NCBI GenBank assembly: GCA_016190245.1
Contig: JACPQY010000066.1
Span: forward strand, 1-32,558
Reading direction: 5' to 3'
Length of the DNA: 32,558 nt
Source of the DNA: Nitrospirota bacterium
GTDB lineage: Bacteria > JACPQY01
Part shown: positions 29,595-29,942 of the stretch, piece by piece
Position numbering within the stretch: position 1 is the first letter of the stretch
How the letters are laid out: each line of letters begins with the position of its first letter
Position numbers and translations under genes: made by a program
Notes under the pieces: model-generated
Databases searched by the model: none
Seen by the model: only the letters and a program-made list of their open reading frames with translations
Told to the model about the DNA's origin: nothing

Positions 29595-29624
29595 TTTACG
29601 ATTCACGGTTTACGCTCTGATCGG
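29595..29624. repeat. Short heptad array, TACGATT word
   Basis: TACGATT, CACGGTT, TACGCTC (29597-29617), followed by TGATCGG, form three to four 7-mers. The array directly abuts the left inverted repeat of the element in front of tRNA-Leu. It is the shortest of the five arrays. Confidence 0.6.
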
Positions 29625-29744
29625 GGGCGCCCCGCACCCATCCCGACGCTCCCCCTCAACCTGTGGTATGCCTGGAAGGCGAAGCCGCCTTCGGCTACAA
29701 TCTTGCCCGTTGCACAGCCTATCGGAGGATGGGTGCGGGGCGCG
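29623..29744. repeat. Copy 2 of the ~122-nt element, joined to tRNA-Leu
   Basis: Inverted repeats of at least 17 bp lie at 29627-29643 and 29727-29743. The interior matches copy 1 from GGCGAAGCCGCC to the right end with few differences. CTTCGGCTACAAT (29689-29701) gives a -10-like box 36 nt before the tRNA. The right arm supplies the first bases of the tRNA acceptor stem (29738-29744). Confidence 0.88.
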
Positions 29745-29820
29745 TGGCGGAATGGAAGACGCAGTGGACTCAAAATCCACCGGTGGCAACACCGTGGAGG
29801 TTCAAATCCTCTCGCGCCCA
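29738..29820 (+). tRNA. tRNA-Leu, anticodon CAA
   Basis: An 83-nt class II tRNA. The acceptor strands 29738-29744 and 29813-29819 pair perfectly over 7 bp, followed by discriminator A29820. The D-arm has GCGGAAT and GACGC, the anticodon stem GTGGA/TCCAC encloses loop CTCAAAA with anticodon CAA (reads UUG), a long variable arm follows (GGTG/CACC), and the T-arm is GGAGG-TTCAAAT-CCTCT. CCA is not encoded. The 5' end overlaps the inverted repeat of copy 2, and a palindrome starts at the last base. Confidence 0.95.
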
Positions 29821-29856
29821 TCCTGCTTCGCCTCGCTCGGCGAGGCTACGCAGGAT
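29820..29856. repeat. 37-nt palindrome at the tRNA 3' end
   Basis: ATCCTGC ... GCAGGAT forms the outer arms, and GCCTCGC/GGCGAGGC the inner stem, with 3-nt internal loops and a tiny terminal loop. It begins at the tRNA discriminator base. No T-tract follows, so it is repeat-like more than an ordinary terminator, though it could stop or protect the transcript. Confidence 0.8.
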
Positions 29857-29942
29857 GCCCTCCGCAGCCTCGGCGGAGGAGGGCACCTGGCTCCGAGGTG
29901 CGGTGTGGGGCGACGTGTGAAGACGTGGCGCCACAGCGAGGC
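29857..29942. repeat. Second palindrome between tRNA-Leu and the MFS gene
   Basis: GCCCTCCGC and GCGGAGGAGGGC (29857-29884) make another hairpin around AGCCTCG; the right arm has a 3-nt insertion. The remainder up to the MFS stop is GC-rich with no recognisable gene. Confidence 0.55.

Follow-up and report, generated by a model that had tools for sequence, protein, structure and literature searches.

A tRNA-Leu(CAA) gene of a Nitrospirota bacterium (assembly GCA_016190245.1) lies between palindromic repeats, one of which reaches into the tRNA itself. This raises the question of whether the ends of the repeat were derived from the tRNA or whether tRNA genes are sites used by the repeats, two alternatives put forward in an earlier note on this DNA. 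We therefore followed the repeats from this locus to their other copies. The window referred to below is the whole analysed stretch of 32,558 nucleotides of contig JACPQY010000066.1; its features are collected in Table 1.

Repeats on both sides of tRNA-Leu(CAA)

The tRNA was called by ARAGORN and matches Rfam RF00005 with 57.3 bits (E 7.5e-11). As the earlier note described, it is tightly framed: the right arm of the adjacent element, copy 2, constitutes bases 1-6 of the acceptor strand, and the discriminator base, 29820, is also the first base of a 37-nt palindrome. The arms of copy 2, GCGCCCCGCACCCATCC and GGATGGGTGCGGGGCGC, are fully complementary (17/17) and lie 83 nt apart. Copy 2 is 80% identical to copy 1 of the window and 77% identical to the C16 copy, and its identity with copy 1 runs on to 29744, position 7 of the tRNA. 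It is not bordered by a clean 4-bp target duplication (flanks ggcg / cgcg). The stretch 29623-29890 folds more stably than all of 200 shuffled versions (200/200, z -4.56).

Table 1. Positions of the elements, palindromes and tRNA gene in the window
Feature	Position	Strand	Remarks
Solitary element end CCCCGCACCTATCC	3944..3957	-	
TIR element copy 1	26644..26769	+	22-bp arms 26646-26667 and 26748-26769; 5' part of UPF0102 frame
TIR element copy 2	29623..29744	+	Core CCCC..GGGG 29630-29740, 111 bp
Copy 2, left terminal inverted repeat, 17 bp	29627..29643	+	GCGCCCCGCACCCATCC
Copy 2, internal palindrome AGGCGAAGCCGCCTTCGGCTAC	29677..29698	+	4 matches in own genome, 2 in G001, 0 in control
TACAAT, candidate -10 box of tRNA promoter (inferred)	29696..29701	+	
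Copy 2, right terminal inverted repeat, 17 bp	29727..29743	+	GGATGGGTGCGGGGCGC; covers tRNA bases 1-6
tRNA-Leu(CAA)	29738..29820	+	No encoded CCA
3' palindrome 1, 37 nt, from discriminator base	29820..29856	+	Folds at -23.5 kcal/mol
3' palindrome 2, 28 nt	29857..29884	+	Folds at -18.3 kcal/mol

The pair of 3' palindromes has a single relative in a genome of a sister genus (G001), 80% identical over 69 nt (E 4.8e-9), whose first base is the discriminator base of tRNA-Ala(GGC); the position is thus reproduced on a different tRNA. A search of the own genome with the pair gave no match beyond the window copy. The 5' element and the 3' palindromes are two unrelated repeats and not one system. The likeness between the tRNA 3' end and the element end, also pointed out earlier, stands as an observation and breaks into two parts of separate origin: CGCGCCC is forced, since it pairs with the acceptor strand supplied by the terminal repeat, and ATCC comes from the independent 3' palindrome.

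Copies in the same genome and in the sister genus

In the window genome (G000; 3.29 Mb, 86 contigs), four copies are detectable by blastn. The end motif CCCCGCACCnATYC occurs there 22 times exactly and 54 times with at most one mismatch, against 13 occurrences of a reversed control, and many occurrences form facing pairs with element sizes near 110, 210 and 300 bp; pairs of facing ends are present in G001 as well. The open UPF0102 frame 26616-27113, whose gene comes after rplS, contains copy 1 ahead of the Pfam domain; an alternative start codon is possible downstream, within the right arm of the copy. Four sites of the same genome (C1:17361, C58:9551, C63:123278 and C78:49125) bear another repeat, with ends CCCCGCCCCTATTC, that may be a sister family.

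An element end is found at base 1 of three of the 42 own-genome tRNAs: Leu(CAA), Leu(CAG) and Ile(TAT). The copy directly before tRNA-Leu(CAG) is in the same register as that at tRNA-Leu(CAA), and among the tRNAs of this genome only these two share a block of ~120 bp together with the acceptor sequence, the TACAAT motif being inside the block. Such a pattern could reflect ordinary paralogy, in which the 5' block would be the promoter and leader of a duplicated pair of tRNA-Leu genes, with the repeats acting as tRNA regulatory hairpins. However, the block is also present at 26644 in the UPF0102 frame and, in diverged form, at C64:33895, both places without a tRNA, and dispersed members are found in G001 and in other phyla. 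The existence of these dispersed copies disfavours paralogy, which we regard as quite improbable.

The sister genus provides the closest comparison, as a DNA search of 60 genomes gave matches in the own genome and in one genome of the same family, G001, only. Neither tRNA-Leu(CAA) nor the single-locus tRNA-Leu(CAG) of G001 has an element, which again speaks against paralogy and indicates that the Leu arrangement is lineage-specific and that the flanks are no conserved leader; the identical, conserved flanks that the earlier note had named as contrary evidence are not seen here. The acceptor strand reads GGGCGCG in both tRNA-Leu(CAA) and tRNA-Leu(CAG) of the own genome versus GCCGGAG in tRNA-Leu(CAA) of G001 (loci compared: the window tRNA, L044, L313 and L314). 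Judging from these sequences, the acceptor stem of the two own-genome tRNAs seems to have been converted along with the element.

In G001, a tRNA-Val(TAC) within a tRNA array is interrupted in its D-loop by an element of the same subgroup as in the window. Comparison with an uninterrupted homologue in another array revealed a clean insertion with a near-perfect 4-bp duplication, TGAA/CGAA. Two intact tRNA-Val(TAC) genes are present in addition to the interrupted one, one of them outside the arrays. The regions C25:62300-67883 (L309) and C59:21300-25810 (L316) of this genome are dense contig-end tRNA arrays rich in unusual tRNAs, and an element interrupts one of these.

Distribution of the family and target duplications

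The ends of the family read CCCCGCACCnATYC / GRATnGGTGCGGGG, and most members measure 102-114 bp, with further classes of ~210 and ~300 bp. An exact scan of GTDB r220 contigs for the terminal pair at ~101-131 bp gave 53 stretches, and 120 distinct pairs were defined by arms with at most three mismatches over 14 bp; both counts include L118 (Aliihoeflea), a long palindrome with palindromic flanks that we regard as unrelated. By record titles, the 53 stretches come mainly from Planctomycetota and Patescibacteria, and fewer from Elusimicrobiota, Omnitrophota, TA06, Desulfobacterota, Acidobacteriota and Calditrichota. In 12 of these genomes the bare terminal repeat occurs 2-38 times versus 0-3 times for the reversed control. 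The spread is patchy: among 247 Elusimicrobiota genomes, ~300-bp pairs were found in G064 only, where they are the L064 member and a nested tRNA case, and exact TIR-tRNA-TIR arrangements were found in 3 of 379 Patescibacteria genomes. IMG/VR contained no match to the plain pair or to the TIR-tRNA-TIR pattern, and carriage of the elements by viruses was accordingly dropped. A larger autonomous element was also considered and rejected, the only wide facing hits (G060:C8:36344/38165) having been resolved into two small pairs.

This distribution bears directly on the origin of the ends. The earlier note suggested that they may derive from the tRNA-Leu; in favour of this, window copy 1 carries the same outer GGGCGCG extension as copy 2. 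However, the core end is common to elements in unrelated phyla and sites, and in several phyla CCCCGCACCnAT ends are present many times at a distance from tRNA-Leu genes. A tRNA origin is thereby largely refuted for the core and is extremely improbable as a whole; the outer GGGCGCG is the sole part of the ends that could be tRNA-derived.

The flanks of the 120 pairs carry traces of insertion. Identical flanking 4-mers border 23 of them, versus 2.24+-1.42 after permutation (reached in 0/1000 permutations), and 97 lack a 4-bp direct repeat. Inverted flanking 4-mers were found for 10 of the 120 pairs against 3.35 expected (1/1000 permutations), and the flank-to-flank pairing energy is -7.08 compared with -5.81+-0.30 permuted. 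These excesses indicate target duplications at some copies and a position at the tip of a hairpin for others.

Size and hairpin form are also similar to those of REPIN or TIRYT repeats, and a REP-associated tyrosine transposase (Y1, HUH) might mobilise the elements; eight Y1_Tnp matches were found in G000 and seven in G001. Against this, none of these 15 loci is bounded by CCCCGCACC ends, and a subset of the elements has 4-bp duplications, which are not expected of HUH enzymes. We hold this mode of transposition to be unlikely. Where inverted repeats are visible, the Y1 transposase genes (L158-L172) lie beside ends of the type GGGGTCA... or GGGGACGTT..., which fit the motif GGGGWSAS published in PMC3733652. 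A REP reading of the internal palindrome (GTAG on the other strand) was likewise abandoned, as what is dispersed is the complete TIR pair, and the Y1 genes have other ends.

Elements inside tRNA and RNase P RNA genes

Several members reside within genes of structural RNAs. In 8 of the 53 stretches (L114, L123, L131, L132, L140, L144, L145, L153) the element lies inside a full-length match to RNase P RNA (RF00010), and in five others (L117, L126, L138, L152, L156) within tRNA remnants. Among all loci retrieved, 20 elements, in genomes other than that of the window, contain a whole tRNA gene; almost every one of them is in turn surrounded by the remains of a tRNA gene of matching amino-acid identity and strand. 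The own cargo tRNA is the best match to the flanks in 11 of the 20, and the best match among the 20 cargo tRNAs is for the same amino acid in 18. The summed own-cargo score was 1195, compared with 643+-53 after permutation and a maximum of 896 in 5000 permutations. Sense exceeds antisense matching in 19 of the 20, the sole exception being L287 (Leu-TAG). For L208 and L217, the automatic best match is a tRNA for another amino acid, and the flanks appear by eye to be remnants of the same identity.

Nested and captured genes were observed as well. In L152, three copies of tRNA-Glu are nested: a decayed outer one surrounds a second one, split at the same loop, and this in turn contains an intact inner one. 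In the Moranbacteria genome G060, 9 of 41 tRNAs examined (42 tRNA matches by another count) lie inside TIR pairs, and no second tRNA with the same anticodon was found for any of the nine, among which is the sole tRNA-Phe. At L279, the cargo tRNA and the broken host copy have a common 3' trailer, a sequence likeness which suggests that the host gene was duplicated to give the cargo. The broken tRNA copies of L217, L238, L250, L253, L279 and L223 contain further unrelated palindromes, for instance TCCCGATGTAACATCGGGA, so that such wrecks collect several palindromic repeats.

Retention of an insert could alternatively rely on its removal at the RNA level, the interrupted tRNAs being functional and the insert intron-like. 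Indeed, several interrupted tRNAs retain paired acceptor stems by eye (L208, L156, L138). On the other hand, extra loop bases stay beside the insert, outer copies have decayed (L152 outer, L126, L255), an intact tRNA for the same amino acid lies inside, and the insert has only ~110 nt and no recognised ribozyme. Rfam scans detected no intron family at gathering score in 58 loci, and none at E<=1 in the window region 25500-30500. G001, moreover, has its two intact tRNA-Val(TAC) genes besides the interrupted one. We therefore consider intron-like removal very improbable. Survival can account for why the enclosed tRNAs have the identity and orientation they do: when an essential tRNA gene is interrupted, the insertion would last only if the same promoter also yielded a tRNA of the same identity.

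The second alternative raised by the earlier note, that tRNA genes serve as sites used by these repeats, is supported by the three tRNAs with a terminal repeat at base 1, the D-loop copy in G001 and the 20 tRNA-bearing elements, whether through preferred targeting or through better survival at these sites.

Candidate promoter of tRNA-Leu(CAA) and proposed mechanism

In folding windows representing transcripts that start at or before the left arm, where both arms pair, the acceptor-stem probability was 0.000-0.001. With a start at 29650, past the left arm, it was still only 0.10, and starts at 29690, 29703, 29707 and 29712 gave 0.67-0.99. As the acceptor stem folds only from the later starts, a working tRNA-Leu most simply needs a start inside the element, downstream of TACAAT. 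In this folding model, TACAAT within the element most likely serves as the tRNA-Leu promoter; a strict promoter scan found none and did not list TACAAT.

Taken as a whole, the best explanation, which we consider likely, is a small mobile family of inverted-repeat elements, one copy of which landed against tRNA-Leu. It builds on the family as observed, with its terminal repeats, distribution, target duplications, residence in tRNA and rnpB genes, and tRNA- and GIY-YIG-bearing members. Its members would move as DNA, presumably in trans, and a 4-bp target duplication would accompany this in at least some cases. Copies would be retained mainly at places that tolerate their hairpin, namely next to genes and within the loops of genes for structural RNAs. 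In the window, the right end of the copy that landed against tRNA-Leu would have become its leader and first acceptor bases; as the element-tRNA block is also found at tRNA-Leu(CAG), a joint duplication or homogenisation of the two genes is probable. The palindromes on the 3' side of the tRNA would belong to another palindromic repeat, unrelated to the first.

Members carrying a GIY-YIG reading frame

All five clear ~300-bp members, a count from which L122 and L150 (301 bp) were left out because of three-mismatch arms off consensus, carry a small GIY-YIG reading frame of 80-98 residues, and only this size class carries it. CCCCGCACC ends lie closely around the frame in 5 of 30 GIY-YIG loci, from five genomes (L266, L269, L273, L274, L282). 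The L064 protein matches Pfam GIY-YIG at 1.3e-11, and one ~300-bp GIY-YIG member lies inside rnpB of TA06. Small GIY-YIG frames also adjoin tRNA genes in the own genome, at tRNA-Arg CCG (L008/L277), tRNA-Pro GGG (L033/L265) and tRNA-Leu GAG (L047/L260), and elsewhere (L276, L281, L284); several of these tRNA-adjoining frames have no CCCCGCACC ends.

The GIY-YIG protein of the ~300-bp members is a candidate mobility enzyme. It is conceivable, though we give it a rather low chance, that CCCCGCACC elements constitute a natural home-and-rescue system, in which the ~85-residue GIY-YIG nuclease of the ~300-bp members would cut, and the small relatives would break tRNA loops while carrying an intact tRNA of the same identity and orientation. 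The host would then become dependent, as with the roughly one fifth of one Moranbacteria tRNA set that would have been captured in this manner, and the window tRNA-Leu, with its promoter and first bases in the element, would be a mild form.

Significance and comparison with known systems

The elements appear to be a small mobile DNA of several distant bacterial phyla, as yet apparently unnamed. No description of these ends was found in the literature searched, and among the matches listed for the string 'ccccgcacc' no title concerned such repeats; as far as these searches show, the tRNA-carrying habit is undescribed in the open papers searched. Capture of essential tRNA genes by such a tiny element would account for the survival of insertions in single-copy RNA genes that are essential, and for tRNA gene replacement in reduced genomes such as those of Patescibacteria. 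If the ~300-bp GIY-YIG members were autonomous, they would be, to our knowledge, among the smallest self-mobile DNAs. For annotation, finders of tRNA and rnpB will meet interrupted and nested genes in these phyla.

By form, the element is a dispersed inverted-repeat element of the miniature kind with a putative mobiliser. Like bacterial MITEs such as Correia/NEMIS and ERIC, it is short, bounded by terminal inverted repeats, mostly non-coding, dispersed and found beside genes, and may bring promoters. Unlike them, it has no identified parent IS, one end sequence extends across many phyla, some elements carry a complete tRNA gene, and the ~300-bp members carry a GIY-YIG frame. REPINs and TIRYT-associated TIR repeats, as presented in PMC3116915 and PMC3733652, are similar hairpin units of ~100 bp with inverted repeats, whereas the present elements have no linked Y1 transposase, ends unlike GGGGWSAS and, in a subset, 4-bp direct repeats. 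Rickettsia palindromic elements (excerpts of PMC3733652 and PMC2635572) can likewise be inserted inside reading frames, as copy 1 is in UPF0102; compared by description only, they differ in that residence in tRNA and rnpB genes and tRNA cargo are unmentioned in those excerpts. Finally, group I introns and IStrons (excerpts of PMC3984707 and PMC4227781) also interrupt tRNA genes and are often linked to homing endonucleases, but the elements described here have no ribozyme, and rescue is by a second tRNA copy rather than by splicing.
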